DNA of 37,641 nt from a virus, in the IMG/VR virus record IMGVR_UViG_3300044951_000407, positions 1-37,641 of that record. The stretch is one strand, 5' to 3'. A model generated the notes under the pieces. That model saw only the letters and a program-made list of their open reading frames with translations. It made no database searches and had not been told where the DNA came from. The position numbers and the translations under genes are program-made. Within the stretch, counting starts at the first letter, position 1. Every line of letters starts with the position of its first letter. Positions 679 through 35,559 of the stretch are shown here, piece after piece.

Positions 679-932
679 TATTTGTCTGCCTTGGCTTCAA
701 GTTTATCGAACAAGCGGTCGAGCAACATCTCAACGCGGTCAAAGCGTTTATCCATCTCGGACTTAATTGTGTCGATCTCGGATTTCTTGACGTAAGCGTC
801 GCTGACGTGCAACTTGAGGTCAGAGATGTCGGTCTTGAGTTCTTTCACCGAATCCCATAATTGACGACAAAACCATCCCCCGACTGCGAATACCAATCCT
901 ATGCCTATGTTGATGACGTTTTGCCAATCCAT
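678..932 (-). CDS. Membrane-anchored coiled-coil protein in the lysis block
   Basis: An 84-residue protein with one N-terminal membrane helix (residues about 6-24, NVINIGIGLVFAVGGWFC) and then a long charged heptad-like helix (residues 28-82). Small proteins with this shape are common next to phage holins and endolysins. A membrane-linked coiled coil would suit an inner-membrane spanin or a holin partner, but no outer-membrane partner is visible, so this is inference. The start ATG overlaps the stop of the upstream 844-residue gene (TAATG), and its own stop is followed directly by the holin-like ATG. At the right-hand copy of this locus the gene is absent and a different hydrophobic protein takes its place. 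Confidence 0.6.
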   Translation of the reverse strand: MDWQNVINIGIGLVFAVGGWFCRQLWDSVKELKTDISDLKLHVSDAYVKKSEIDTIKSEMDKRFDRVEMLLDRLFDKLEAKADK

Positions 933-3466: not shown

Positions 3467-4920
3467 TATTTTGCTCCTACGGGAGTCCAAGTATTGCCGC
3501 CATCAGTCGACATGATGCGATCTTTACCGTTTGTAGCGTATATAGGCGGCGTTGTTGTTGCACTTCCACCACCGCCACCACCTTCTTGTCCTTTTATTTC
3601 AAACTGACCTTTTCTTTCTTTCATCAATTTAAGAATAATTTCAGCCGCACCTTTTCTGACATCATTTGGCAAACCAGTATCAGCCAATTTACCGGCTGCT
3701 GCTAAATATGAATCAACGTCTTTGTTAGATTGAGGGCCTTCAAAACGCGGAACCATTTTAAGAACCATGTCTGCAATAGGTGCAAGTTGCGCTCCAGCGA
3801 TTGCACCTTCTGTGCTTTGCCCAAAAAACGCTGCGCTTGCATCAAAAATACGACCTGCACCGCTGCCGGTTGATTTTTCAAGCAAACCGCCAGGTTTAAT
3901 AACTGCTTCAAGATTACGGATTGCAGTTTCTAACTCTCTATCTATCTTAGCTTTGGTTTCTGCTGTCTTTTCATTAAATGCTGTTGCGGGTTGTTTTCCA
4001 ACAGCTTGTTCTGGCTGGACAAGTATAGACTTTCCATCAGGGCCCATAATCGCAACAGGCTGACGAATTGGTTGCTTAGGTTTAAGAATACTAACCGGCG
4101 CATTAGCCACAGTCGGCGCGCCAGGCTGCGACTGCACAAGTGGCAACAATGAATTTGTGGGTGCGTTAACAATAGTGCTTGCCGTAGCAGGGTTTGCCAA
4201 CGCGTTAGTAACGGGAGGCTGCGGTTGCGGGGGTGGAGGCGCCATACCTACGGGGCGAGCAGAGTTAGGGTCAAATGGATTAATTGTATAAAACCCATTA
4301 TCACCAGTAACAATTTGAAGTTTTTCGCGTTCTCTTTTATCAAGTCGTAAGCTGTTATCTCTTGACACATTTGAGCCGTAATACGACGCACCAACAGTCG
4401 CAGCGTTATTAGCGCGCGACGTAGCGTCAGACATTTTATCTTTGGCGCTAATAGCCGAATCAATGCCTTGTTGTGCAAGTGCAGCAATTTGTTTAGGATC
4501 GCCGCCTGTAGCATCTATTTTAGCCCGCATAGCCGCAGCGGCTTGGCTAGGAATGATTCCCATCTGAACCGCAGTATCAAATATGCTGTACGCGTTGTCT
4601 AGAGTAGGATTTTTAACCAAACCGCTAAACGCAGCACCTAAATAATCAGCCCTTTTAAGGCCAATTTCAGTTTGTTTTTGTTGTTGGTCAAAAGTCTTAC
4701 CTCGCAATTCCAATGCAAGTCTAGGATCTTGCCGAGCAATACGATTAAATGTCGCGGGGTCGTTAATGTCCGTCCCTTGAGAAAATGCGTCGCGCAAATT
4801 GTTTTGTTGTTCGTATTGCTGTTGCGCGCCTCGCAACTGCATCATCTGCCCCATTTGGGCAAGCATATTGGGCTGCTCAATAGGTTTTACGCCTAGCGCA
4901 ATGTTGGTGTCGAGTGCCAT
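3466..4920 (-). CDS. Internal virion / ejection-associated protein
   Basis: 484 residues. The N-terminal third is Gln- and Met-rich and helical (residues about 15-100). A Pro/Ala/Asn linker follows (about 220-310), then a helical domain (about 320-445). A Gly run precedes a short C-terminal motif that ends TDGGNTWTPVGAK. It lies between two other presumed ejection proteins, three bases after the upstream stop, and shares one base with the next start. I do not recognise a named family. The low-complexity, soluble helical character fits a protein that is packed inside the head and ejected. A tail or scaffold-related role cannot be excluded. Confidence 0.5.
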   Translation of the reverse strand: MALDTNIALGVKPIEQPNMLAQMGQMMQLRGAQQQYEQQNNLRDAFSQGTDINDPATFNRIARQDPRLALELRGKTFDQQQKQTEIGLKRADYLGAAFSGLVKNPTLDNAYSIFDTAVQMGIIPSQAAAAMRAKIDATGGDPKQIAALAQQGIDSAISAKDKMSDATSRANNAATVGASYYGSNVSRDNSLRLDKREREKLQIVTGDNGFYTINPFDPNSARPVGMAPPPPQPQPPVTNALANPATASTIVNAPTNSLLPLVQSQPGAPTVANAPVSILKPKQPIRQPVAIMGPDGKSILVQPEQAVGKQPATAFNEKTAETKAKIDRELETAIRNLEAVIKPGGLLEKSTGSGAGRIFDASAAFFGQSTEGAIAGAQLAPIADMVLKMVPRFEGPQSNKDVDSYLAAAGKLADTGLPNDVRKGAAEIILKLMKERKGQFEIKGQEGGGGGGSATTTPPIYATNGKDRIMSTDGGNTWTPVGAK

Positions 4921-6490: not shown

Positions 6491-7311
6491 GTCTGAAAAG
6501 TTCCTGACGTTGTAAAGACATGAATAGAGTAACCACCAACAAACGAATAAGTACCACCCGTTGCTTGTTGTGTGCCGAGATATTTAATAACTGCAATGCC
6601 CGAACCACCTGCGCCGCCCGTACTGCCAGGATCGGGGTTAAACGGGCCACCGCCACCGCCACCGCCCCGATTAACCGTGCCTGCACCGCCGCTGCTTGCG
6701 CTGTTTACGCTGCCCGCGCCACCACCACCTGAACCGCCCGCGCCGGTGCCAGGCGTGTAACCACCGCCCCCGCCGCCGCCGCCATAAGTGACACTTGATC
6801 CGGTAATAGACGATGCCGTTCCATTGCCGCCGCTACCGCCGCCGCCCACGCCATCGCCGTTACCTCCGGCGCTACTCGCACCGCCCCCGCCGCCGCCAGG
6901 TGAGCCAAACCCCCCGCCCCCGACGTTTCCTTGACCGGCTGTAGCTGCGCCGCCACCACCACTTACGTTTGCACCGCCGCCACCGCCCGAGCCACCGGCA
7001 CCGCCAACCGCGCCTTGCGGGCCACCGTAACCACCGCCAATTGCGGTGTTAACGCTGCTTATTAAACTATTTGATCCCGCAGTTGACACGCCCCCGCCCG
7101 CACCAATGGTGACGGTGTAAGCCACCCCCGTTACTATTGTTGCTGAACTAGATAGGAAGCCACCCGCACCACCTCCGCCGCCACCGGCGGGGCCGGGGGC
7201 GCCGCCCCCGCCACCACCTGCAACGATAAGGTAGTCAATAAGCAGACTGCCGCTTGTGCCAAAGCCAAACGCGCCCGCCGATGCTACACCGATGGTTGAT
7301 AAACGTGGCAT
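6487..7311 (-). CDS. Glycine-rich adhesin-like tail protein (third glycine-rich module)
   Basis: 274 residues with about 20 runs of three to six glycines. The module starts with YLIVAGGGGGG, then GGAGGFLSSSATIVTGVAYTV and TIGAGG, and ends with a small beta domain (GIAVIKYLGTQ...YSIHVFTTSG). The same plan occurs twice in the protein at 13814-15400. Glycine-rich repeats of this type can pack as polyglycine-II helices, as in the Gp38 adhesin at the fibre tip of Salmonella phage S16. A receptor-binding role is therefore plausible but inferred. The gene follows the tail-fibre gene at once. On the opposite strand the same DNA reads as proline-rich frames, which are shadows. Confidence 0.6.
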   Translation of the reverse strand: MPRLSTIGVASAGAFGFGTSGSLLIDYLIVAGGGGGGAPGPAGGGGGGAGGFLSSSATIVTGVAYTVTIGAGGGVSTAGSNSLISSVNTAIGGGYGGPQGAVGGAGGSGGGGGANVSGGGGAATAGQGNVGGGGFGSPGGGGGGASSAGGNGDGVGGGGSGGNGTASSITGSSVTYGGGGGGGGYTPGTGAGGSGGGGAGSVNSASSGGAGTVNRGGGGGGGPFNPDPGSTGGAGGSGIAVIKYLGTQQATGGTYSFVGGYSIHVFTTSGTFQT

Positions 7312-8277
7312 TTATGCGTACCTTGTTCTAGCAGCAAGCACGGTAAACGTAGCACTTGCAGTTTTAAGAATGGCGTAAGTGTAGGTATCTACCGAGTTAA
7401 CATTACCCGCAGTAGGTGCAACACCACCTTGCCATTTAGGCGTGACCGATACGCCATCAATAGTCAACGCGCTGTTGTAATAGGCGGTTGCACCTTGGGT
7501 TGCCATAAAGGTGACGGTAATGGTCTGCCCCGTAGACATCAAGCTGTTAAGCGTAGCCGCCGATGATGCGCGTAAATTTATTGTCCAGTTGGCAGTTGCG
7601 TTAGTTGTGTAGTACACAATGGATTGTGTTGCTACGTCGTAATTGATTGTGCCGGTAGCAGCGGTCGCCGATATAGTCGTAGTTTCAACAATGTTTTTAA
7701 AGGTATTGTTGGTGACGTTAAGCAATTGAAACCGTGTACCGTCGTATTCAATTAGCGTCAAAGCACCGGCTTGAATGTCGCCCGCCGCCAAAGCCACCGT
7801 GCCGAACTTGGTAATTGACTTAACCCCAAGCGTGTCGATGTCGATTGTGACGGCAGCGGTGTTGGCGTTCTGAGCAATAAAGCTGTATTGTGCGCCCGCA
7901 GCATATCCTGACAATGCGGGTGTAGCCAAGCCGGTTAGCGTGTTTGTACCGGCAACCGTAATTAGGTTGCTAAAGGTTGTCGTGTCGTTAATTGCCGGAA
8001 TATTGTCATACGACCCAATCTGAACGTAAGTCGAGGACTTCAGCACAAACTTGTACAGCACCCCGCCGTCTAGCCAAATCTCATTTGGTGTGCGCCCTGC
8101 CGCGTCCAACACAATCGGGTTGGTGTTGTTGGTCGTGCCGTCGCGGGTAGTGTAAGTTGTAACTGGCGTGGTAGTGCCCGACAGGTAGGTGTATATCAAG
8201 CCGCCGGTCAGAGGTGCGCCATTGGCATCTGAGAATTGCGCGCCCGCACCGGCAAAGGCTGAAAGATTGATGGACAT
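7312..8277 (-). CDS. Tail fibre / tailspike-like protein with a head-binding-type N-terminus
   Basis: 321 residues. Residues 1-100 have the layout of a podovirus fibre anchor domain: FSDANGAPLTGGLIYTYLSG, then TTPVTTYTTRDGTT, then a 'piVLDAAGR..EIWLDGG.YKFVL' segment. The rest is beta-rich, Thr/Ala-rich and ends in a compact Val/Tyr-rich strand pattern, typical of a receptor-binding or coat-surface domain. It overlaps its 66-residue upstream neighbour by one base and is followed without a gap by a glycine-rich adhesin-like gene. The three genes probably make the adsorption apparatus together. No enzymatic (polysaccharide-degrading) motif was seen. Confidence 0.6.
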   Translation of the reverse strand: MSINLSAFAGAGAQFSDANGAPLTGGLIYTYLSGTTTPVTTYTTRDGTTNNTNPIVLDAAGRTPNEIWLDGGVLYKFVLKSSTYVQIGSYDNIPAINDTTTFSNLITVAGTNTLTGLATPALSGYAAGAQYSFIAQNANTAAVTIDIDTLGVKSITKFGTVALAAGDIQAGALTLIEYDGTRFQLLNVTNNTFKNIVETTTISATAATGTINYDVATQSIVYYTTNATANWTINLRASSAATLNSLMSTGQTITVTFMATQGATAYYNSALTIDGVSVTPKWQGGVAPTAGNVNSVDTYTYAILKTASATFTVLAARTRYA

Positions 8278-22904: not shown

Positions 22905-23642
22905 ATGCTATCAATATCATCCGATGCAAAAACAGTAAAAGGCCTCAAGCTTGGTTTTCTAACAGGCATACTGTATCTCACACCTAGCGATCTCTCAGGC
23001 CAACAGGTTTGCCCTATGGCCAAGCTTGCAGAATGCGAGGCGCCATGCTTGTTTAGTGCCGGCCGTGGCGCGTTTACTAGCGTACAAATTGCGCGCCTAT
23101 CAAAAACAGATTGGTTTTTTAACGATCGTGAATCGTTTATGGCCGAATTGATCGATAGTGTTTTTGCTTTAATCCGTCAAGCCATGCGGCAAAGTTTAAC
23201 GCCAGTGGTACGCCTAAACGGCACTAGCGATATCAGATGGGAAAGCATACCGGTTACATATAAAGGTATTACATACACAAGTATTTTTGCCCTATTTCCA
23301 CAAGTACAGTTTTATGACTATACCAAGCTTGCTAACCGTAAAAACGTACCAAGCAATTACGATCTGACATTTTCCTATAGTGGCGCGCTGGCATACCAAA
23401 AGTATGTACAGCAAGCCATTGCTAGCAAAATGCGTATTGCTGTGGTGTTTAGAACCGTGGCCGATATCCCCAAAAGCTTTTTGGGTTTGCGCGTGATACC
23501 TGGCGATAACTCGGATATCCGTCACGTAGAACCCAAAAATCGTATTGTGGCCTTATATGCTAAAGGCCAAGCCAAAAAGGATACAGGCCCTTTTGTAGTT
23601 GATACCCTTCGTAAAATTATCCCCATCAAGCTTGCAGCATAA
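22905..23642 (+). CDS. Gp88-family phage protein
   Basis: 245 residues. The order of motifs (LSISSDAKTVKGLKLGFLTG, 'ILYLtPsdLSGqqVCP', 'SAGRGAF..VQ.AR', 'tpVvRLNGTSDIRWES', 'fYDYTK.anRk', then 'vaLyAKGQAKKDTGPFVVDT') matches the widespread phage family 'gene product 88' as I recall it. Its biochemical role is not established. Cysteines at about residues 36, 44 and 48 are conserved-looking, and the Arg-Leu-Asn-Gly-Thr-Ser-Asp-Ile motif looks like an active-site loop, so an enzyme with a barrel fold is possible (inference). The leader ACAAGGAAATAAA gives the ribosome site. Confidence 0.65.
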   Translation: MLSISSDAKTVKGLKLGFLTGILYLTPSDLSGQQVCPMAKLAECEAPCLFSAGRGAFTSVQIARLSKTDWFFNDRESFMAELIDSVFALIRQAMRQSLTPVVRLNGTSDIRWESIPVTYKGITYTSIFALFPQVQFYDYTKLANRKNVPSNYDLTFSYSGALAYQKYVQQAIASKMRIAVVFRTVADIPKSFLGLRVIPGDNSDIRHVEPKNRIVALYAKGQAKKDTGPFVVDTLRKIIPIKLAA

Positions 23643-23865: not shown

Positions 23866-23929
23866 ATGCCACCTATACATTCACCCCTAATTAACCATAA
23901 AATGCGCTAACGTGTATCAGGGAGAAACC

Positions 23930-24421
23930 ATGGCACAAGTAATTGAAAAGAAAAGAAGAGGATTGCATAATCTTGCTTACACCGAGCGCGAGATATGGCC
24001 TCAGATCCTTGAGCGCATCTCAAGCGGTCAAAGCTTAGTGGGTGCCGCTAAATCGCTCCAGATCCCCTATGCTCAAGCCAAGTATCACTTGCGACAAAAC
24101 GAAGATTTAAAAAAGAAGTATTACTTAGCCATAGAAGAGCGTGGCGACTACCTAGCGGATGAGCTAGTTGATCTTGCCGATGAGATGCCACCACCAGACC
24201 TTGATCCATCCCTGATAAACACCTGGGTGAATCGCCAGAGGCTTAGGATCGATGCACGGAAATGGTCGGCATCAAAGCTTCGACCAAAACAATGGGGCGA
24301 CAAAATTGACGTAAGCGTTACACACACACAAATATCCATTGTCCAGGCACTTGAACAAGCTGAGGCTCGGCTTTTGGATGTCACGGACATCACCCCAAAC
24401 GAACCTAAAACTCTAGATTAG
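23930..24421 (+). CDS. terS: Terminase small subunit-like protein (Sf6/HTH type)
   Basis: 163 residues. The start at 23930 is chosen because AGGGAGAAACC lies directly before it. An upstream GTG at 23912 would put that site inside the gene. The N-terminal half is a helix-turn-helix: TEREIWPQILERISSGQSLV, then AAKSLQIPYAQAKYHLRQN. A charged helical middle follows. The 'WVNRQRLRIDARKWSASKLRPKQWGDKIDV' segment (about residues 103-132) is typical of Sf6-like small terminases. The product would recognise the pac site and guide the large subunit. The gene is on the opposite strand to terL and ends in the repeat array. Confidence 0.7.
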   Translation: MAQVIEKKRRGLHNLAYTEREIWPQILERISSGQSLVGAAKSLQIPYAQAKYHLRQNEDLKKKYYLAIEERGDYLADELVDLADEMPPPDLDPSLINTWVNRQRLRIDARKWSASKLRPKQWGDKIDVSVTHTQISIVQALEQAEARLLDVTDITPNEPKTLD

Positions 24422-24585
24422 CGGTACAGCGGTACTAGCGGTACATAGCGGTACAATCGATATCTGTATATGTACTGCTAACCCCCCAAGGTTAGCGGTA
24501 CAGGGTATGTATCCTTAAGGAGTACCAGTACCGCAGTACTGCTAATTTTGCTCACTTTTTGAGCAAATTATGGATTTAGCGGTAC
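24420..24585. repeat. AGCGGTAC repeat array with hairpins, candidate replication origin
   Basis: AGCGGTAC occurs six times in direct orientation at 24420, 24428, 24437, 24447, 24494 and 24578 (first four at 8-10 base intervals). The inverse GTACCGC is at 24528-24534, and one-mismatch inverse copies are at 24472-24479 and 24536-24543. GTACTGCTAACC (24472-24483) pairs with GGTTAGCGGTAC (24490-24501) around a six-base loop, with one G-T pair. A second hairpin, TTTGCTCA with TGAGCAAA, lies at 24547-24567. The array sits between convergent terS and the PrimPol-helicase gene and has no gene of its own. Confidence 0.7.
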
Positions 24586-24593
24586 AAGCACCC

Positions 24594-26570
24594 TCAATCA
24601 CCATCCGACTCTTTTTTGTACGATTTCGGCATAACATACCCTACTTCATGTCGCCCTGGGCGCTTCTCAATGGGGGCTTCAAATGGCGTATAAATGGCGT
24701 TAATCATGCCACGCGCAACCATGGCATCGATTACCTCAAGGGCTTGATTCTTGTTGCCACCGATACGCTCGGCGAGTTCAGTTTTAGTGCGGTATTCAGT
24801 TTTATTGAGTAAATTCAGCGCCGATATAACCGCCTCCTCCTTTTGTTTTAACAATAATTGTCGGGCTGCTAAATCGGCATCCTTTCGGTTCTTTTCTTTA
24901 ACCTTTGCTATCTCACTTTTACCACCAGCTTCAACGATTTCAGGCACCCCATGGATTAGGGTTTCGGTTATTTTGTTGCCCAAGATGTCATGTGTCTGAA
25001 TCACGTTAACACTTGCGCCAAACAGGATTCCGTCCGCACGGGCAAAGAATCGATGCTTGGCTGACACAATCTCAAGCCACCGTTTGCCATCATCTTCTTT
25101 AATCATGTACATGACTTGGTTAGCGTCAGCTTCCCATGCACCGGCACCGCGGGCGCTGAAATCGACCACATCGGCGCGTTTGAGTGCTTTGGCAATATGG
25201 CCAACCAACACAAGTGGGATGCCCCTGAACTTCTGTTTTAAGACTGCCATGGCGCGTCCGACCTCGCTGTTGTCGGACTCATTTTCGAGATCAAATACGC
25301 TGTTGTTGGTATCAAACACCACAACGGGGTTAGTGCGGTATACCTCACCGTCTGCACTGATGTTATCAACTGCCATGGTTTCATAGAATGGTGCGACTTG
25401 GGCGACTATCTCGGGGGCTAACCGTGCTGCGGCAACCACCTTGATCCATTCGGACACCTCTTTGGCGGTACGCACCCCAAAATGCCCTGCTTCACGCATC
25501 GATCGCAATATACGCAATGCTTGTTTAGGATCCTCGGATACCCAGATCAACTTACGCCTAAGTAGTGGTTTAAGGGGATCGTCTGGGTCACATAGATGGG
25601 TGACACGGGTAAGGAGGGGCAACAATTGGGTGGTCTTGCCCGATGCTGCTGAGCCAACCACCAAAACCACGCCTGCTTCCATCATGCCGTCTAACACGTA
25701 CTCGGTAGGGGGGATATTGTCTAGATCGTAATGCACGAAGGTAGACAAAGGGTGGGGCAATTGCTCACGGATCAAGTTCTCGGCTGCGGCGTCCCCAAGT
25801 GCTGCGGAGGCGCCGATGTCATGCTCGGGAGCGTAGCGGGCAATACTTTCGGCAATACGCTTAACATCGGACGCGGGTAACGGAATATCGCACCGCTCGG
25901 CGTTTGCTGCGCTAATGGCTGCAAATATTTCGCTGCTTGAGAAGCCATTACGACGCATAGAACCCGCCATAGACGCCAATCCCGCATTACGATTACCGGT
26001 GATCAACTCACCATCTGTTGCCGTCACGATGACTTTGCGTACTGCCATCGCTGCTAACCACGTTTCTGGTATCGCAAAGGGGCTAATCCCGTCTGTAGGA
26101 TCGCCGGACGCTTCCCATGCGTACTCGCGGTCATTCACGCTTGAGGGGGTAACAACGAAATACCGACCATTTGCCAAAAAGTCCACACCTCGGCGCAACT
26201 CACAACTTTTTAAACCCTCGCGCGACTGTGCAATGTAATGCTGCCCGCCACCTGCGGTCAGTTGGCATATACCATCAGGTACGGCGCCGTGCTCTGCTAT
26301 GAAATCATCCCAAGATTCGCTGCCACCATTGCGCGGATCGATGTCAAACACCACAATGCCGCTCTTTTCACCTGCTGCAATACCGATATTAAAACTAGGG
26401 TTCTGCGCCCACCAGGCTTTGATCTGCTCGGGGTCGGTGGTCGCATCATGCACCCCATGGGCTGACGCTGGTCGCTTATCGTTTGGTATTAACGGTAAGA
26501 CGTGCCAACCCCAAGATGCGTACTGCAAAGCCGCATCTAGCTTGCTTGTTGTGGTCATAAGGAGGCTCAT
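24594..26570 (-). CDS. Primase-polymerase / helicase replication protein
   Basis: 658 residues. The N-terminal bifunctional primase-polymerase domain (about residues 11-175) has GWHVLPLIPNDKRP, a catalytic VVFDIDPR (Asp76 and Asp78), a GGGQHY histidine (about 111) and RGVDF...RYFVVTPSS. A RecA/RepA-like helicase follows, with Walker A GSAASGKTT (about 306-314), 'LIWVSEDPKQAL', Walker B-like VVVFDTNNS (about 408-416) and 'PLVLVGHIAKALKRAD'. The C-terminal 90 residues look like a winged helix (ALNLLNKTEYRTKTELAERI). It probably makes primers and unwinds DNA to start phage replication. The start overlaps the HTH gene's stop by four bases (ATGA). Confidence 0.85.
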   Translation of the reverse strand: MSLLMTTTSKLDAALQYASWGWHVLPLIPNDKRPASAHGVHDATTDPEQIKAWWAQNPSFNIGIAAGEKSGIVVFDIDPRNGGSESWDDFIAEHGAVPDGICQLTAGGGQHYIAQSREGLKSCELRRGVDFLANGRYFVVTPSSVNDREYAWEASGDPTDGISPFAIPETWLAAMAVRKVIVTATDGELITGNRNAGLASMAGSMRRNGFSSSEIFAAISAANAERCDIPLPASDVKRIAESIARYAPEHDIGASAALGDAAAENLIREQLPHPLSTFVHYDLDNIPPTEYVLDGMMEAGVVLVVGSAASGKTTQLLPLLTRVTHLCDPDDPLKPLLRRKLIWVSEDPKQALRILRSMREAGHFGVRTAKEVSEWIKVVAAARLAPEIVAQVAPFYETMAVDNISADGEVYRTNPVVVFDTNNSVFDLENESDNSEVGRAMAVLKQKFRGIPLVLVGHIAKALKRADVVDFSARGAGAWEADANQVMYMIKEDDGKRWLEIVSAKHRFFARADGILFGASVNVIQTHDILGNKITETLIHGVPEIVEAGGKSEIAKVKEKNRKDADLAARQLLLKQKEEAVISALNLLNKTEYRTKTELAERIGGNKNQALEVIDAMVARGMINAIYTPFEAPIEKRPGRHEVGYVMPKSYKKESDGD

Positions 26571-26740
26571 GGTTTGGGGTCAAAATACTCAGACAATTTC
26601 TTGATCACTTCATAAGAAGGATTCTTGTTTGCACCGTTTTTGATGTTTAACAAAGTGTTGTAATGCACCCCCGCCAACTCCGCAACAATAGGCACCGACC
26701 TATCGTGCATCAACTCCCTGATTTGCTCAATCGTCAACAT
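26567..26740 (-). CDS. Small helix-turn-helix regulator
   Basis: 57 residues from the ATG at 26740, with AAAGGTG six bases upstream. A GTG nine bases earlier lies in that ribosome site and is unlikely. The product has an HTH: SVPIVAELAGVHYNTLLNIK, then NGANKNPSYEVIKKLSEYFD, typical of Cro/CI-like or XRE-type folds of minimal length. It is translationally joined to the PrimPol gene by ATGA and faces a divergent rightward promoter flanked by a 10-bp inverted repeat. It probably represses or times that promoter and its own. No integrase is present to suggest true lysogeny. Confidence 0.75.
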   Translation of the reverse strand: MLTIEQIRELMHDRSVPIVAELAGVHYNTLLNIKNGANKNPSYEVIKKLSEYFDPKP

Positions 26741-26762
26741 TTTTTGCACCTTTTTAAATTAA

Positions 26763-26859: not shown

Positions 26860-27531
26860 ATGGCTATCAATCTTAGAAGCACGAAAGGTCTACACGCCAA
26901 TGGTGTGAAGCTTTTAGTTTACGCACAAGCAGGTGCTGGCAAAACAAGCTTGATCCCCACCCTGCCAAACCCTGTTGTGTTATCGGCTGAAGGTGGGTTG
27001 TTATCAATTGTCGATGCAGACCTACCTTTTGTCGAAGTGTCATCTTACGACACGCTGATGGAAGCGTATCGTTGGTTGATTGAATCAGACGAAGCAAAAC
27101 AGTTTGAGTCAATTGCATTAGATTCAATCAGCGAGATTGCCGAGGTGGTGTTAAACCATGAGAAGAAAATTGCAAAGGATCCTCGCCAAGCTTATGGTTC
27201 CATGCAAGAGCAGATGTATGACATTATTCGCGCGTTTCGCGATATTGATGGCAAACATATATATTTCACAGCGAAGTGTGAGAAGACTGCTGATGAGTCG
27301 GGGCGCATTCTCTACGCACCGAGTATGCCAGGCAACAAAACTGGTCAGGCGCTGCCTTACTTTTTTGACGAAGTGTTGGCACTACGCGTTGAGAAAGATG
27401 CTGAGGGCGTGGCACAACGTGCGTTGATGTGCGACTCGGATGGGATCTGGCAAGCTAAGGATCGCTCGGGCAAGCTTGACACTTGGGAAGCGCCGGATTT
27501 GGGTGCCATTATTTCTAAGATTGGGGGTTGA
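26860..27531 (+). CDS. Sak4-like RecA-fold recombinase/ATPase (AAA_24)
   Basis: 223 residues. Walker A is AQAGAGKTS (about residues 22-30). A VVLSAEGGLLS strand and the Walker B-like 'ESIALDSISEIAEVV' (about 83-97) follow, with 'HIYFTAKCEKT' further on. This pattern fits the AAA_24/Sak4 family of short RecA-like phage proteins, which anneal single strands with an SSB partner (family knowledge). The DUF669/SSB-like gene three genes downstream supports that. It starts 49 bases after the operator, with a GGAGAG ribosome site, and leads the recombination operon. Confidence 0.8.
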   Translation: MAINLRSTKGLHANGVKLLVYAQAGAGKTSLIPTLPNPVVLSAEGGLLSIVDADLPFVEVSSYDTLMEAYRWLIESDEAKQFESIALDSISEIAEVVLNHEKKIAKDPRQAYGSMQEQMYDIIRAFRDIDGKHIYFTAKCEKTADESGRILYAPSMPGNKTGQALPYFFDEVLALRVEKDAEGVAQRALMCDSDGIWQAKDRSGKLDTWEAPDLGAIISKIGG

Positions 27532-27532
27532 T

Positions 27533-27745
27533 ATGAGAAATGACCAAAATGCATTTCCAGTTACTTACGGTAGCGACGGAGTAGAACATGGCATGACATT
27601 ACGTGACTATTTTGCGGCGGCTGCAATACAAGGCATTTTTGCTAGCACTGAATGGTCTGACGTTAGTTGGGATAGATGTAAAGCAATGGTTGAGGATTCA
27701 TTCAATATAGCTGACGAAATGCTTAAAGCAAGGGAGAAATCATGA
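27533..27745 (+). CDS. Small conserved phage protein
   Basis: 70 residues from the ATG at 27533, one base after the recombinase stop and following a GGGGG ribosome site. An in-frame upstream start at 27440 would lie inside the recombinase gene. The motif MTLRDYFAAAAIQGIFASTE (residues 21-40) and a 'CKAMVEDSFNIADEMLKARE' helix are typical of short phage proteins whose function is unknown. It is joined to the next gene by an ATGA overlap. Confidence 0.6.
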   Translation: MRNDQNAFPVTYGSDGVEHGMTLRDYFAAAAIQGIFASTEWSDVSWDRCKAMVEDSFNIADEMLKAREKS

Positions 27746-28113
27746 TCCTCTATCAACAATGGCTCGACGCCAAAGCAGCAGAAAAGAAAGCGATGGATGA
27801 TCGTCGCACGATCGAAGACCAACTAGTCGCAGACTTGGGCATTGCCAAAACCTTGGACGGCACCCAAAACGTCGAGGTTGAGGGCTACAAGGTCAAGATC
27901 GTTGGTCGCCTCGACCGTAAAGTGAATTCAGACAAGTTGCAAGACTTGGCTGCTGAGTATGGCCTAACTGAACACCTGTCTTCTTTATTCAGGTGGAAGC
28001 CTGAAATTAACGCAAGCGCATGGAAAAGCGCTGACCCTCGCATTACCGACCCTTTGCAAGACGCTATTACGACCACCAACGGTCGCCCCTCTTTCACAAT
28101 CATCAAGGAATAA
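27742..28113 (+). CDS. Conserved phage protein (DUF7173-like), recombination operon
   Basis: 123 residues: a helical start (WLDAKAAEKKAMDDRRTIED), a middle with VEVEGYKVKIVGRLDRKVNS and a C-terminal LFRWKPEINASAWKSADPRI followed by a 'TtngRPSFTI' end. I recall this pattern from phage proteins encoded between Sak4-like and SSB-like genes (DUF7173, family name from memory). It may be an accessory of the annealing machinery (inference). The ATG overlaps the previous stop, and the next gene starts five bases after its own stop. Confidence 0.6.
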   Translation: MILYQQWLDAKAAEKKAMDDRRTIEDQLVADLGIAKTLDGTQNVEVEGYKVKIVGRLDRKVNSDKLQDLAAEYGLTEHLSSLFRWKPEINASAWKSADPRITDPLQDAITTTNGRPSFTIIKE

Positions 28114-28118
28114 ACATC

Positions 28119-28589
28119 ATGGCACAGTTAGACGAAACCTTTAGCGCTGACACACTTCCCGTATCAGACCGCAATTTTGAGCCTTTGCCTGCGGGTTGGT
28201 ATACCGCTGTGGTAAACGGTGCTGATATCAAAATGACCAAGGCTGGTACTGGCAAGTACATTGCCGTGCGTTACGACATCACTGGCCCAACGCATCAAGG
28301 GCGTGTGGTGTTTGGCAACTTGAACATTAAGAACCCAAACCCGACCGCTGAGAAGATTGGTCGCGAGCAATTAGGCGAGATTATGCGCGCCATTGGGTTA
28401 GCCACGGTTCAGGACACGGATCAATTGATCGGCGGTCAGTTGATGATTAAGCTGGACGTGCGCGAGAGTGAGCAGTATGGCGCATCGAACGACGTTAAAG
28501 GGTTTAAATCTACTGGTTCGGCACCACCGTCAGCAAAGGCAGCGCAAGCAGCACCCGCCAAGGCCGCGCCGCCTTGGGTTAAGAAGTAA
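28119..28589 (+). CDS. DUF669-like single-stranded-DNA-binding protein
   Basis: 156 residues. A beta-barrel-like N-terminal domain (FEPLPAGWYTAVVNGADIKM, then 'GTGKYIAVRYDITGPTHQGRVVF' with 'NLNIKNPN', about residues 21-75) is followed by a helical 'EKIGREQLGEIMRAIG'. The C-terminal Ala/Pro tail (about 130-156) resembles the flexible tail of SSB proteins, although it ends in basic rather than acidic residues. The DUF669 family is associated with the Sak4 recombinase and acts as its SSB-like partner (family knowledge). No acidic SSB tip is present. Confidence 0.7.
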   Translation: MAQLDETFSADTLPVSDRNFEPLPAGWYTAVVNGADIKMTKAGTGKYIAVRYDITGPTHQGRVVFGNLNIKNPNPTAEKIGREQLGEIMRAIGLATVQDTDQLIGGQLMIKLDVRESEQYGASNDVKGFKSTGSAPPSAKAAQAAPAKAAPPWVKK

Positions 28590-28654
28590 CACCATCAAAA
28601 ACGCACCGAACCATAAGGTTTGGTGCAAATTTATCAACTTTGAAGGATTTAAAA

Positions 28655-28909
28655 ATGTACAGACAAGACCTGATTAATGCCGGACGCGCAGCGCGCGCTT
28701 TTAGAAATCCTGATTTATCGATTGATCAAGAAGATGAAGAAGCCCATTTTAAGGCAGTCGAAAAGATTGACGAAATAGTTGTAAAAATGAAAGCCAAAAA
28801 CCCAAATGATTTTTGGGTAGATGGTTCTCCCGAGTACCGAAAACTGACCGATGTTTGGGCAGCAGACCGTGCAGCACGTTTTTTTAACAGCACTAGGAGC
28901 TTAAAGTGA
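28655..28909 (+). CDS. Small helical protein of unknown function
   Basis: 84 residues from the ATG at 28655, with GAAGGATT nine bases before. A TTG at 28640 is a less likely start because it overlaps that site. The product, MYRQDLINAGRAARAFRNPD followed by an acidic helix and a basic 'KMKAKNPNDFW' segment, is charged and soluble. It overlaps the next small gene (GTGA at 28906-28909), so the two are likely translated together. The family is not recognised. Confidence 0.5.
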   Translation: MYRQDLINAGRAARAFRNPDLSIDQEDEEAHFKAVEKIDEIVVKMKAKNPNDFWVDGSPEYRKLTDVWAADRAARFFNSTRSLK

Positions 28910-29046
28910 TTGATTTAAATTTAACCGTAGCAGAAATTAATTCGATTATGACAATGTTAGGTCGCCAACCTTACGAACAGGTTGAGGGTTTGATTGCAAA
29001 AATCCGCGCGCAAGCGTTGCCGCAGTTGCCAAAGGCAGCAGAGTAA
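28906..29046 (+). CDS. 46-residue helical protein with GTG start
   Basis: A short frame read directly: GTG at 28906 overlapping the upstream TGA, preceded by TAGGAGC, and TAA at 29044-29046. The product reads MIDLNLTVAEINSIMTMLGR, then QPYEQVEGLIAKIRAQ and a short Pro/Ala tail. The LTVAE...LG..PYE.V..LI.KIR pattern is a common theme in tiny phage proteins of T4-like and podovirus genomes (recollection). It was likely missed by automated calling because of its length and GTG start. Confidence 0.6.
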   Translation: MIDLNLTVAEINSIMTMLGRQPYEQVEGLIAKIRAQALPQLPKAAE

Positions 29047-29159
29047 AAAAAGCAGGGGTGGTTAGGCAAGCATTCAAGGATGTCGTAGGTGCGTGTTTTT
29101 CTTGCCTTCCAACGCACAAGTAGTCACGGCCAAATTGACACCCCGCCCCCTAAAAAAAT

Positions 29160-29183
29160 GCCCCTGACCTTGCGGTTGGGGGC
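29160..29183. other. GC-rich hairpin in the 5' leader of the nuclease gene
   Basis: GCCCC-TG-ACC (29160-29169), TTGC loop and GGT-TG-GGGGC (29174-29183) pair with a symmetric two-base interior bulge. It lies inside the 158-base gap before the 29205 ATG. A T-run follows on the minus strand but A's follow on the plus strand, so it is no plus-strand terminator. It may be a leader or processing structure. Nothing else is evident in the gap. Confidence 0.4.
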
Positions 29184-29204
29184 AAAAAACTAAGGAGAGG
29201 TATC

Positions 29205-30224
29205 ATGAAAATACCAGAGTCAGAATACACCATTTCAGCTTTGATTGACAAGCACCATGAGTCAATTCAGAGCGAGCCACGCCCCCACATGGGTGCCTCG
29301 GTGTTGGGCCACGTCTGCGACAGGTGGTTATGGCTATCGTTTCGTATGGCTGTTGTCGAGCGCTTCCCTGGGCGCATCTTGCGCCTGTTCAGACGGGGAC
29401 AAGACGAAGAAGCCAAGGTTGTGTATGACTTGCGCGCAATCGGCATCAACGTGCAAAAGACGGGCGAGAACCAAAGCAGGGTTGACTTTGGTTGCCACGT
29501 TGGCGGTAGCGTGGACGGAATTATTGAATCAGGCGTACCTGAGTCACCCAACGCCCGCCACGTCTTGGAGATCAAGACGCACGGCAAGAAATCGTTTGAT
29601 GATCTTGAAAAGAATGGGGTTGAGAAAGCAAAGCCTCAGCACTTTGTCCAGATGCAGGCTTATATGCTTGGGCTAAAGCTTGACCGCGCTTTGTATTACG
29701 CCGTCTGCAAAGATGACGATAGGATATACACCGAGCGAGTCAAGCTAGATAAGGCCGTGGCACAAAAGGCGATCGACCGGGGTTATCGCTTGGTCAAAGC
29801 CGATCGTATGCCACCACCCATCAGCACCGACCCCACTTGGTTTGAGTGCCGGTTCTGCGCGGCGCATGAGTTTTGCCACAAGACCAAGCTAACCAAAGAA
29901 GTGAACTGCCGCACTTGTACCAACAGTACTGCGCGCGAGGACGGCACTTGGCATTGTGAAGAGTATGACGTGAATCTTGACTTTACTCAGCAAAAATGGG
30001 GTTGCGAGGCGCACGTCTTGCACCCTGACCTAGTGCCGTGGGGATACAAAGTTAAGGACAAAGCGGTCATTTGGATAACGCCCGACGGTGACATCAAGAA
30101 TGGCGTGAGCGACTGGGAAACTTTCACAAGCCGTGAGATTGTGGCAAACCCCAAAGCCTGTGCTGCTGACGATAAATTTATTGGCGAGGCGCGTGAGATA
30201 TTTGGTGCGAAGGTGGTGGGGTAA
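29205..30224 (+). CDS. Cas4/RecB-like PD-(D/E)XK nuclease with iron-sulfur cysteines
   Basis: 339 residues. The nuclease core has GGSVDGIIE (Asp104), VLEIKTHGKKS (Glu122, Lys124) and a QMQAYMLGL motif (about residues 149-157). Cys38, then Cys215-x2-Cys218-x5-Cys224 (WFECRFCAAHEFC), match the split four-cysteine iron-sulfur signature of Cas4 and AddB nucleases. A further Cys cluster (C235, C238, C251, C267) could bind zinc. It is probably an exonuclease for end processing in recombination or replication. It is the fifth clear DNA-metabolism gene of the rightward block, with its own hairpin-bearing leader and a GGAGAGG ribosome site. Confidence 0.8.
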   Translation: MKIPESEYTISALIDKHHESIQSEPRPHMGASVLGHVCDRWLWLSFRMAVVERFPGRILRLFRRGQDEEAKVVYDLRAIGINVQKTGENQSRVDFGCHVGGSVDGIIESGVPESPNARHVLEIKTHGKKSFDDLEKNGVEKAKPQHFVQMQAYMLGLKLDRALYYAVCKDDDRIYTERVKLDKAVAQKAIDRGYRLVKADRMPPPISTDPTWFECRFCAAHEFCHKTKLTKEVNCRTCTNSTAREDGTWHCEEYDVNLDFTQQKWGCEAHVLHPDLVPWGYKVKDKAVIWITPDGDIKNGVSDWETFTSREIVANPKACAADDKFIGEAREIFGAKVVG

Positions 30225-30227
30225 TGC

Positions 30228-30256
30228 TTGATATGTGTCTGTCATTCCTATAAAAT
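30228..30256 (+). promoter_or_regulatory. Promoter before the HNH gene
   Basis: TTGATA (30228-30233) and TAAAAT (30251-30256) with a 17-base spacer lie in the 58-base gap before the HNH gene. This fits a free-standing endonuclease gene that brings its own promoter. Confidence 0.5.
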
Positions 30257-30282
30257 GGACTGACTGACACAAGGGGAATAAC

Positions 30283-30858
30283 ATGAAATGTGCATTTGAT
30301 GAATGTGATCGTAACTCAAAATCAAAAGGTTATTGCGATATGCATTACCGAAGATTGCTGAAACGCGGCAATGTTAACGATTATGGAAGTAAAAAAGTTG
30401 ACATTGGGAATGCAACTGAACGTTTTAATAAAAAATATCAAATTCAAGAAAATGGCTGTTGGTTGTGGACTGGCGGAACCAGATTAAATGGCAAAGGGGT
30501 GCCTTATCCGCGTCATTGGACTGATGATCTTAAATCAATAGGCGCACATAGATTTGCCTATGAATTAACGCATGGGGCGATACCAAAAGGAATGTACGTT
30601 TGTCATAAGTGCGATACGCCTTTTTGCGTAAACCCAGATCATCTTTTTGTTGGCACTCACTACGACAATATGCGCGATATGGTCCAAAAAAACCGATCGT
30701 TTACTGGCCGTGGCGAAAACAAAATTGGTCGATCAAAATTAACCAATGAACAAGCGCAACAAATAAGACTTATGCAAATTTCACAATCAAAAATTGCCGC
30801 ATTGTTTGGGGTTAGCCAAACAACTATTGGGCGAATAAAGCGCAAAGAGAGTTACTAA
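30283..30858 (+). CDS. HNH homing endonuclease-like protein with zinc knuckle and HTH
   Basis: 191 residues. The N-terminus has CAFDECDRNSKSKGYCDMHY (about residues 3-22), a Cys/His zinc motif. The HNH core runs from GAHRFAYELTHGAIPKG (87-103) to 'VCHKCDTPFCVNPDHLFVGT' (106-125), with His108, Asn117 and His120 as key residues and paired cysteines 107, 110 and 115. The C-terminal 45 residues form an HTH (IAALFGVSQTTIGRIKRK). It is probably a mobile, free-standing endonuclease. Its A/T-rich codon use and separate promoter set it apart from the flanking nuclease and helicase genes. Its stop overlaps the helicase ATG (TAATG). Confidence 0.85.
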   Translation: MKCAFDECDRNSKSKGYCDMHYRRLLKRGNVNDYGSKKVDIGNATERFNKKYQIQENGCWLWTGGTRLNGKGVPYPRHWTDDLKSIGAHRFAYELTHGAIPKGMYVCHKCDTPFCVNPDHLFVGTHYDNMRDMVQKNRSFTGRGENKIGRSKLTNEQAQQIRLMQISQSKIAALFGVSQTTIGRIKRKESY

Positions 30859-32468
30859 TGCAGCTTCGTGATTATCAATCTAGAAGTATTGAAATGCTTT
30901 ACGATTGGATGGGAAAGAACCAAGGCCATCCATGTATTGTCATGCCTACAGGGTCTGGGAAAAGCCATGTCATTGCGGCGTTTTGCAAAAACGCGCTACA
31001 AGAATGGCCAGAAACGCGCATCTTAATGCTTACGCATATCAAAGAATTAATCCAACAGAATGCAGAAAAGATGTGTTTACATTGGCCAGGCGCACCGCTA
31101 GGTATTTATAGCGCAGGAATCGGCAAGCGTGAATTAGGGCAACCCATTACCTTTGCGGGGATCCAGTCTGTTAGAAATAGAGCAGAACAAATTGGCCATA
31201 CCGATATCATTTTAATAGACGAATGCCATCTCGTGTCCCACAAGGACGAAGGTGGCTATAGGGGGCTAATTGCAGACCTTACGGCGATTAATCCTTATGT
31301 TCGCATAGTCGGGTATAGCGCCACGCCTTATCGCTTGGGGCACGGTTTAATCACGGATAAGCCCGCATTGTTCGATGCCCTGATTGAACCGGTCAGCATA
31401 GAGGAGTTGGTACATAAAAAATTTCTAGCAACCCTGCGTAGCAAACTGACATCTGAACGCTTGGACGTGAGCGGTGTGCATAAGCGCGGCGGCGAGTATA
31501 TCGACTCAGAGTTGCAAGCAGCGGTTGATAACGCTGACAAGAACATTGCCGTGGTGCGCGAGGTGATTAGGCTAGCGGGTGATAGGCGCGCCTGGTTATT
31601 CTTTTGCGCTGGCGTCAAACACGCGCAGCACGTTTGCGTTGAGCTCACCCATCAAGGTGTCACGGCTGCGTGTGTGACCGGCGACACACCGAAAGCCGAG
31701 CGCGATCGGATCCTGACAGAGTTTAAAGCGGGGCGTATCCGTGCGCTGACTAACGCCAACGTGCTAACAACTGGATTTGATTATCCCGACATTGATCTGA
31801 TTGCCATGCTGCGCCCAACCATGTCAGCGTCACTCTATGTGCAAATGGCAGGGCGTGGGATGCGCCCCAAGAGCCACACCGATCATTGCTTGGTCTTAGA
31901 CTTTGCGGGCGTAGTCGAGATGCACGGGCCAATCACCAACGTGCAACCACCAAAGAAAGGTGGGTCAGGTGAGGGCGAGGCACCAGTCAAGATTTGCGAC
32001 GTGTGCCATGAGATTGTTCACATCTCGGCGCACACTTGCCCCAATTGCGGCACACCGTTCCCCCCGGCGCCTGAGAAAAAATTGGTGTTGCGCCACGACG
32101 ACATCATGGGCTTGGATGGCGTGGATATGCCGATCACAGACTGGCATTGGCGTAAGCACGTCAGTCGCGCTTCAGGCAACGAAATGATCGCCTTAACTTA
32201 CTACGGTGGCTTAACTGACCCACCCATTACAGAGTACTTGCCAATTCTGAATCAGGGTTATGCCGGCAACAAAGCTATGACGCTGCTCCATGACATAGCA
32301 CAACGATCGAACGCCACGCTATCGGGCATTAATCAAGCCGCAGAGCCATTGCACTATTTGGTGCAACAAATGAATCAGTCTAACCCGCCAGCCATGATTT
32401 CGTATAAACGTGATGGCAAATTTTATAAGGTGGTGAAGCGACTATGGCAACAACCTCAGAACACCTAG
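30858..32468 (+). CDS. SF2 DEAH-type helicase with zinc finger
   Basis: 536 residues. Motif Q/I: LRDYQ at residue 3 and MPTGSGKS (about 29-36). Motif II: DECH (121-124). Motif III: SATPYR (about 154-159). Motif VI: QMAGRGMRPK near residue 330. After the helicase core, CDVCHEIVHISAHTCPNCG (about residues 380-398) forms a four-cysteine zinc finger, and a helical C-terminus follows. It unwinds or remodels nucleic acid, probably in replication or recombination. It directly follows the HNH gene by a TAATG overlap and overlaps the VRR-NUC gene by 25 bases, so the pair is likely co-translated. Confidence 0.85.
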   Translation: MQLRDYQSRSIEMLYDWMGKNQGHPCIVMPTGSGKSHVIAAFCKNALQEWPETRILMLTHIKELIQQNAEKMCLHWPGAPLGIYSAGIGKRELGQPITFAGIQSVRNRAEQIGHTDIILIDECHLVSHKDEGGYRGLIADLTAINPYVRIVGYSATPYRLGHGLITDKPALFDALIEPVSIEELVHKKFLATLRSKLTSERLDVSGVHKRGGEYIDSELQAAVDNADKNIAVVREVIRLAGDRRAWLFFCAGVKHAQHVCVELTHQGVTAACVTGDTPKAERDRILTEFKAGRIRALTNANVLTTGFDYPDIDLIAMLRPTMSASLYVQMAGRGMRPKSHTDHCLVLDFAGVVEMHGPITNVQPPKKGGSGEGEAPVKICDVCHEIVHISAHTCPNCGTPFPPAPEKKLVLRHDDIMGLDGVDMPITDWHWRKHVSRASGNEMIALTYYGGLTDPPITEYLPILNQGYAGNKAMTLLHDIAQRSNATLSGINQAAEPLHYLVQQMNQSNPPAMISYKRDGKFYKVVKRLWQQPQNT

Positions 32469-34349: not shown

Positions 34350-34930
34350 GAGAAGCCAGGGAGTTACAAACGCACATTGATGAACTTGTAAAACACATTG
34401 CACACTTAGATAAGCAATTGCAAGATGTTGTGCTTGCTAAACCTGAAATGCCAACAAAAATCATTGGCCCAAATTTTGAGGAAATTCTTAACGCAGCTGG
34501 GTTTTATCGGGGTGACGCCGTGTGCTGCAATGATTACGAAAAATGCATTAAGCCTTGTACGCCAAAAGGTCGATGGTTAGCAGAGAAAGAGTTAGCCAGA
34601 CCTGAGCATACTTTTGATACGCCTAAGTCACACATTGTTAAATGGTCAATACCTGTTGACCCAAATAATTTTGGTGAACCACTCGCACAGTTTGAGCAAG
34701 AGCCTGTTGCTAGGTTTAATTGGAACGAAGCAAAGTTTGAATGGTTGACCGAGTATAGCTTTGACAAACACCACATGAAGCCTCTGTATCTCGCACCACA
34801 ACGCAAAGAATGGGTCGGGCTGACGGAAGATGACCATGAAGATTTTGCTAATAGAACTAAGCTGTTACCAATACTTGCAAAAACAATGGCCGAATTTATC
34901 GAAGCTAAACTTAAAAAGAAGAACACATGA
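34346..34930 (+). CDS. Conserved phage protein with 'PLYLAPQ..WVGLT' motif
   Basis: 194 residues: a coiled-coil start (REARELQTHIDELVKHIAHL, residues 2-21), then a Cys-containing part (CCNDYEKCIKPC), and 'EPVARFNWNEAKFEWLTEYS' followed by 'PLYLAPQRKEWVGLTEDDHE'. The 'EPVA....PLY.aP..r.WvGLT' pattern recurs in many phage proteins of unknown function. It overlaps its neighbours by ATGA. No enzymatic motif can be read. Confidence 0.55.
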   Translation: MREARELQTHIDELVKHIAHLDKQLQDVVLAKPEMPTKIIGPNFEEILNAAGFYRGDAVCCNDYEKCIKPCTPKGRWLAEKELARPEHTFDTPKSHIVKWSIPVDPNNFGEPLAQFEQEPVARFNWNEAKFEWLTEYSFDKHHMKPLYLAPQRKEWVGLTEDDHEDFANRTKLLPILAKTMAEFIEAKLKKKNT

Positions 34931-35559
34931 GCTACATCGTCGCATCTCTGCCCCCGCTCAAGTGTTTCGTACGCCGAGAGTTTCTGTACAACTTCACCAA
35001 AGGCCACGGAGAATACGAACCGGCTATTTGGGTGAGCATTAAGGCACTTAGGGGTCAAGTGTTTCGCATTGAGAGCCTTCTGCCGGCCTATGGCGCGCTT
35101 TACGACAAGTTGCCCATCCACGCCTATGTGTGGCACACCGATAGCCCTGCGTCGCTTCCTATTGACGTCCTACAGCTTTGGGATTGTATGGGCTACAAGT
35201 TTACAGTCATTGAGAAGATCGGGCTGCGTAACCTAGGCGTTAAGTTTATGTCTAAAGACAAGACGTGGGTGTACGGCAAGTACTTGTTTACGGTGGACTT
35301 CTGCGCGGATGGTCAGGACGTGGATACTGGCTTTACCGAGCAGGCCGAGGAGCATAAGAGTTTTAACTTCATCAGGCTTGACAATGGTCAGTTTGCTTGT
35401 CAGCCGAACAATAGGTGCCTGTGGTACGACCAAAGCCTAATCCCGTCTGATACCAAGCACCCTGATTTTCAAGCAGCACAAACGTTTTGGACGGTGGACG
35501 GCACACGCAAGTGGACAACCGGCACCGATTGGTTTTATAACATTGAGGAGAGGACATGA
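34927..35559 (+). CDS. Conserved phage protein of unknown function
   Basis: 210 residues beginning MSYIVASLPPLKCFVRREFL, with 'GHGEYEPAIWVSIKALRGQVFRIESLLPAYGALYDKLPIHAYVWH' and a beta-rich C-terminus. I recall close relatives in many aquatic podovirus and siphovirus genomes, with no known role. The Trp- and Tyr-rich beta pattern suggests a compact single domain. It overlaps the neighbouring genes by four bases each (ATGA), in a train of at least seven ATGA-linked genes from 33587 on. Confidence 0.6.
   Translation: MSYIVASLPPLKCFVRREFLYNFTKGHGEYEPAIWVSIKALRGQVFRIESLLPAYGALYDKLPIHAYVWHTDSPASLPIDVLQLWDCMGYKFTVIEKIGLRNLGVKFMSKDKTWVYGKYLFTVDFCADGQDVDTGFTEQAEEHKSFNFIRLDNGQFACQPNNRCLWYDQSLIPSDTKHPDFQAAQTFWTVDGTRKWTTGTDWFYNIEERT

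Follow-up and report, generated by a model that had tools for sequence, protein, structure and literature searches.

A repeat array in the 37,641-nucleotide stretch of viral DNA analysed here (the window, from IMGVR_UViG_3300044951_000407), lying just after a PrimPol-helicase gene, is very probably the replication origin of this phage, or the initiator-binding part of it, read by the winged helix of the phage's own PrimPol-helicase. We base this reading on the position of the array 3' of the gene, its conserved plan, a repeated word that follows the winged helix only, a relative with an inserted gene (L166), cultivated phages and precedents among known systems. Recognition of the array by the protein is supported by sequence comparison, and we infer that the protein binds there, that the DNA melts at the core and that priming and replication start at the array. 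The original prediction had proposed a candidate origin at this place, and its proposal is strengthened by the observation that the word changes along with the C-terminal winged helix of the PrimPol-helicase.

The array lies between two convergent genes, that of the terminase small subunit (TerS), ending at 24421 on the + strand, and that of the PrimPol-helicase, ending at 24594 on the − strand:

23912–24421, + strand: terminase small subunit, Sf6-type (PF20901), neighbour of the array, whose word is independent of TerS
24419–24454, + strand: four direct repeats TAGCGGTAC / AGCGGTAC, 8, 9 and 10 nt from start to start
24471–24502, no strand assigned: inverted pair TGTACTGCTAACC-CCCCAA-GGTTAGCGGTACA, 13-bp stem with one G.T
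24512–24521, no strand assigned: core palindrome TCCTTAAGGA, flanked by repeats of opposite orientation
24523–24544, − strand: inverse sites GTACCGC and GTACTGCTA, also foldable into a 6-bp hairpin
24547–24567, no strand assigned: TTTGCTCA/TGAGCAAA hairpin with A/T runs on both flanks
24577–24585, + strand: outlying sixth direct copy TAGCGGTAC, the copy closest to the PrimPol stop
24594–26570, − strand: PrimPol (PF09250), PriCT_1 (PF08708), AAA_25 (PF13481) and C-terminal winged helix in one protein of 658 aa, the proposed initiator
24594–24935, − strand: C-terminal winged helix (aa 546–658), with a recognition helix beginning NKNQ, the proposed repeat reader
26567–26749, − strand: Cro-like HTH regulator of 60 aa, directly upstream of PrimPol; the array word is independent of it

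All the repeats announced by the original prediction were located at 24420–24585, and the gene-free gap between convergent genes was recovered as well, with the first repeat overlapping the TerS stop: TAG, the opening three bases of the first TAGCGGTAC, is the stop codon. Six exact + strand copies of AGCGGTAC start at 24420, 24428, 24437, 24447, 24494 and 24578, the exact inverse heptamer GTACCGC lies at 24528, and the two near-inverse copies, GTACTGCT(A) / GTACTGCTA, are found at 24472 and 24536. Across the 37,641-base contig the word TAGC(G/A)GTAC (TAGCRGTAC) has seven occurrences, every one within 24419–24585; no second array of it exists elsewhere in the 37.6 kb, and three further single copies of AGCGGTAC (at 8852, 19697 and 21083) all fall inside genes. 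The array is confirmed, and chance falls far short of accounting for it: across 25 dinucleotide shuffles the count of any single 8-mer in a 170-nt window never exceeded three, against six in the array and five in sampled real windows. An origin of the array by chance or as a coding repeat was rejected. In other contigs, pairs of AGCGGTAC belonged mostly to arrays with a 9-nt period that lacked this PrimPol and are probably coding repeats; these were set aside. As in iteron-type origins beside an initiator-helicase (SaPI/P4-like), a short site is repeated in the non-coding DNA adjoining the proposed initiator gene. The unit is a 9-bp word in steps of 8–10 nt and not the classical plasmid iteron (~17–22 bp, phased near two helical turns), as had been remarked of the spacing from the start.

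The hairpin built from the repeat, predicted to have 12 bp, exists with a slightly longer stem: 24471–24483 pairs with 24490–24502 over 13 bp, namely 12 Watson-Crick pairs and one G.T. Folded as DNA, the + strand gave −11.2 kcal/mol (z = −4.2) and the − strand, where the G.T turns into a C.A mismatch, −9.4 kcal/mol. On a larger scale, the 39-nt arms 24417–24455 and 24508–24546 are 72% complementary. Only short hairpins were found after PrimPol, and no stem-loop of ~100 nt of the pRN1 type.

The protein encoded next to the array combines PF09250, PriCT_1 and a helicase domain, as expected of a phage PrimPol replication protein. Its helicase domain corresponds to Pfam AAA_25 and matched RecA/RAD51/DnaB-type folds in Foldseek; no SF3 (D5-type) helicase domain, as in SaPI Rep or P4 alpha, was found in it. 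The full-length AlphaFold model being poor (mean pLDDT 58), the winged helix is described from the C-terminal domain folded separately with AlphaFold2, which gave a mean pLDDT of 79.5, ~90 over the core, and an H-H-H-beta-beta arrangement, a winged helix predicted with good confidence. Foldseek matched this domain to winged helices of the MarR/Fur/ArsR type with weak E-values, and a sequence search of solved structures gave no match. The variable residues linked to the word map to the start of the predicted recognition helix.

Relatives were collected from IMG/VR with the PrimPol protein (18 loci) and with an alignment (279 loci, 80 of them kept), the PrimPol proteins of related loci forming 43 clusters at 97% identity. 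Of the 69 loci, window included, that extend 250 bases or more 3' of the gene, 66 had a 7-mer at least four times 3' of the PrimPol gene, and in 56 of the 69 no other stretch of the locus was richer in repeats than the post-PrimPol array; upstream of the gene, nothing comparable was seen in related loci. Of the three exceptions, L166 has a gene inserted between PrimPol and array (at 6895–7850), so that the array, with the word expected from the C-terminus, lies ~850 bp further along. In L135, unrelated coding sequence comes straight after PrimPol and the record ends before a possible array, and L123 encodes a shortened protein. In all window-class relatives with enough downstream DNA the array has kept its location and the succession of its parts, which runs from one or more outlying copies through the terminator-like hairpin, the inverse copies, the core and the inverted pair to the four direct copies; the absence of the array from close relatives that keep PrimPol, named by the original prediction as evidence against its own reading, was thus not observed. 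Most of them also preserve the steps of 8, 9 or 10, and 10 nt, the 47-nt step to the next copy and the TTTGCTCA/TGAGCAAA hairpin. A CTWWAG core was present in 36 of 41 representative loci, which are related within classes and do not amount to 36 independent events, versus 179 of 1467 control windows (12%). The central stem persists in relatives through the word changes, seven of its 12 pairs being changed on both sides; we did not use this co-variation as proof of a cruciform because it is largely forced, both arms carrying the same binding word. The stem pairs beyond the word (columns 10–12) give a hint, from their sequence, of a selected stem.

The word itself differs between lineages. The class of the window has GTACCGCTA and others have ATACCGCTA, ATACCACATG, ACCCCCT, CCGTCACA, AACGTAGCA, CCGTACTA, TGGGACA, CGGGACA or CCGTAACA, at least ten words across lineages, all within one shared layout of direct and inverse copies around a core. 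Within each array most copies switch word together, the pattern shown by sites that share a single reader protein; L003–L006, where the central hairpin retains G-type words and the remaining copies are A-type, speak against the reading. The recognition helix NKNQ goes with GTACCGCTA, and SKNT, DRNK and DKAK go with ATACCGCTA. This pairing holds whether the primase domain is 60 or 96% identical and the helicase 74 or 98%, at TerS identities of 52–97% and with any Cro-like protein. Loci with ~96% identical PrimPol domains, 98% identical helicases and an identical Cro-like protein have the G- or the A-type word according to whether they have NKNQ or SKNT, and a primase domain only 60% identical, combined with the same recognition helix, comes with the same word. 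Conversely, L127, L128 and L132 resemble the window in primase domain (82–85% identity) and TerS (69–76%) but have another helicase and C-terminus, and an unrelated array (ACCCCCT).

Pairwise comparison gave the same picture: loci with an N-terminus at least 80% and a C-terminus at most 30% identical shared no array word (mean similarity 0.0, 70 pairs), and array words were common to those with an N-terminus at most 65% and a C-terminus at least 80% identical (mean similarity 0.50, 41 pairs), the Spearman p-values being set aside since pairs are not independent. As far as sequences can tell, these natural chimaeras show that the word tracks only the C-terminal winged helix, and not the primase domain, the helicase, the terminase or the Cro-like regulator; by this comparison, it appears to be the C-terminal domain of the helicase protein that determines site specificity. 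Because the adjacent array and C-terminus can recombine as one block, joint recombination alone would yield part of the linkage, which is thus weaker evidence than the concerted change of copies and L166; these two observations argue against joint recombination as its whole cause.

Since the word follows only the winged helix, a pac or cos packaging site whose repeats are bound by the neighbouring TerS is very unlikely. Pac sites bound by small terminases lie within or close to the small-terminase gene itself, and the array begins exactly at the end of a gene for an Sf6-type small terminase, but the site does not co-vary with TerS: it is wholly different in L127, L128 and L132, the word is the same in L007–L009 with TerS only 52–54% identical, and the groups of L014, L015, L114–L118 and L121 have a post-PrimPol array and no match to the window-type TerS. 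For the same reason we give very little credit to an operator array, be it for the upstream Cro-like regulator or for autoregulation of PrimPol. The conserved Cro-like gene directly upstream of PrimPol would suit such a role; its product, however, is 100% identical over 58 aa between L001 (G-type) and L003, L004 and L006 (A-type), and is 95% identical in L128, which nevertheless has ACCCCCT, and only 42–46% identical in L011 and L013, which have the same word. Both flanking genes also have their 3' ends towards the array, and no promoter-like site was found in this stretch; the original prediction, too, considered an operator less likely.

Our findings concern recognition by the protein and not initiation, and the hairpin pairs fully (with its one G.T) only on the + strand. 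These observations would fit an array that is not itself the start but serves copy control or secondary binding of the initiator, in the manner of P4 crr, or is used by the primase-helicase for initiation on a single strand. We regard this as unlikely: in a contig without a second word array any specific binding by the protein would be here, and opposed repeats around a core resemble duplex origins. As for the possibility that the convergent genes are separated by a terminator or RNA element in which the repeats are incidental, a single terminator-like stem was called, at 24526–24541, and the TTTGCTCA/TGAGCAAA hairpin resembles, and probably is, a terminator that stops transcription from both of these genes. 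This accounts for one hairpin but not for the repeated word or its concerted change; arrays also occur where the next gene is not convergent, and an Rfam search gave no match above chance, which leaves this explanation a negligible probability.

If the array is the origin, the winged helix of the PrimPol-helicase would bind the 9-bp TAGC(G/A)GTAC at the direct repeats and also at the oppositely oriented copies around the CCTTAAGG core (CTWWAG-centred). Once bound, it would bring in or assemble the RecA-fold helicase ring at the array, the core or hairpin region would melt and open the duplex, and the PrimPol domain would lay the first primers. Binding, helicase loading, opening and priming probably proceed in this manner by analogy with SaPI Rep, SCCmec Cch2, pRN1 ORF904 and P4 alpha. 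Cumulative GC skew, put forward in the original prediction as a check on the origin, was rejected as evidence: its minimum falls 2.5 kb from the array, at a divergent promoter (2–3 kb away), as also seen in contigs with clear skew, so that it tracks transcription or gene orientation and is uninformative on the origin.

The Cro-like gene overlaps the start of PrimPol and is kept upstream of most relatives, L128 with its different array included; its product is probably a repressor of the replication gene. A block on the + strand (26860–32468) encodes a Sak4-like annealing ATPase, a DUF669 SSB-like protein, a Cas4-type exonuclease, an HNH endonuclease and a DEAD-type helicase, and may serve the handover of replication to a recombination-dependent mode. 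Elsewhere in the contig, a gene shortly before that of the small terminase (22905–23642, +) encodes a homologue of phage 'Gene product 88' (PF17338); we also observed a match to PHROG 3704 'ferredoxin' (34927–35559, +; E 1e-73), possibly an auxiliary metabolic gene, and an 852-aa protein without PHROG match (932–3490, −). There was no match in E. coli genomes, and one scan of GTDB species genomes found no relative.

Two follow-up scans used queries from other branches, p101 of Rhizobium phage 16-3 and the TOPRIM protein of an Alteromonas phage. Relatives of p101 (PrimPol and AAA_25) had an array 3' of the gene in 8/8 cases, with the words CGTGACA, CCAGACA, GGGACAA and CCATACA. Among the TOPRIM relatives, 29 of 70 had an array directly after the gene, the rest being mostly of other C-terminal types, and a rule that the array always directly follows the gene was rejected for them. 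Eight of 13 annotated phage records carried an array and five did not; the former include Idiomarinaceae 1N2-2, Salicola CGphi29, Alteromonas XX1924 and PB15, Rhizobium 16-3 and RHph_X2_25, and Roseobacter CRP-823. The five records, like the TOPRIM loci with no array directly after the gene, speak against the reading. Carriers of the arrangement with a TOPRIM primase include phages of Alteromonas and Idiomarinaceae. Four cultivated phages (L191–L194) have TOPRIM in place of PrimPol and retain the kind of helicase, the C-terminal domain and the array arrangement. From these sequences, almost all of the PrimPol clade has the arrangement, and outside that clade only a part of the phages do. A 7-mer found 11 times in one 250-base window of L226, away from the primase-helicase gene, is possibly a displaced array or another repeat.

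We lean towards the view that these loci represent a wide class of phage origins, with an AAA_25-helicase/winged-helix initiator, an interchangeable primase domain (PrimPol or TOPRIM) and, just after its own gene, an array of 7–9-bp words around a CCTTWAGG-like core, the at least ten word/recognition-helix pairs forming a natural specificity code that possibly bars co-infecting phages from each other's origin. To our knowledge, only a minority of tailed phages have a known origin of replication. If our reading is true, origins could be read from the sequence just after the primase-helicase gene in several hundred uncultivated and some cultivated phages, and the way in which word and recognition helix change in pairs would supply natural data on a code of protein-DNA specificity, as well as material for testing origin diversification against cross-use or origin-directed attack. 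Tests could start at once in cultivated phages such as Rhizobium 16-3, Alteromonas PB15 and Roseobacter CRP-823. In a literature search with most subscription papers outside it, neither this arrangement in PrimPol-AAA_25 phages nor the word/recognition-helix series was found described.

What is already known is that origins lie just after the initiator-helicase gene in SaPIs, and this has been proposed for SCCmec and pRN1. The alpha protein of phage P4 unites primase, helicase and C-terminal repeat binding in one polypeptide, as proposed here, and P4 has short repeats at ori and crr; its primase and helicase belong to other families and its repeats form two separate regions. According to the account in PMC7581432 (citing Ubeda et al. 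2007), SaPI origins and the proposed SCCmec (Cch2) origin have iterons directly after the helicase gene, read by the C-terminal domain, as we propose for the window; their helicases are of the D5/SF3 kind, whereas here a RecA-fold AAA_25 is fused to PrimPol on a contig with virion genes. Plasmid pRN1 has an essential region within 166 bp after the gene of its PrimPol-helicase, which carries a winged-helix domain, with a stem-loop as proposed origin and a terminator hairpin, but this stem-loop has 100 nt and no iterons and the helicase is SF3, whereas short repeats dominate here (PMC4234260). A C-terminal winged helix has been suggested to recognise the origin in the primase PolpTN2 of a plasmid (Kazlauskas et al. 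2018, PMC5862659). The PrimPol-helicase of phage NrS-1 has an 8-nt recognition sequence in its own genome, although in two copies only, mid-genome and needed as priming template, and its helicase is of superfamily III (PMC7102993). Finally, RepA of PLE is a RepA_N initiator without primase or helicase domain, acting with ~30-bp semi-palindromic iterons, but there too the origin varies along with its initiator, and relatives have exchanged the two as one module (PMC8263062).
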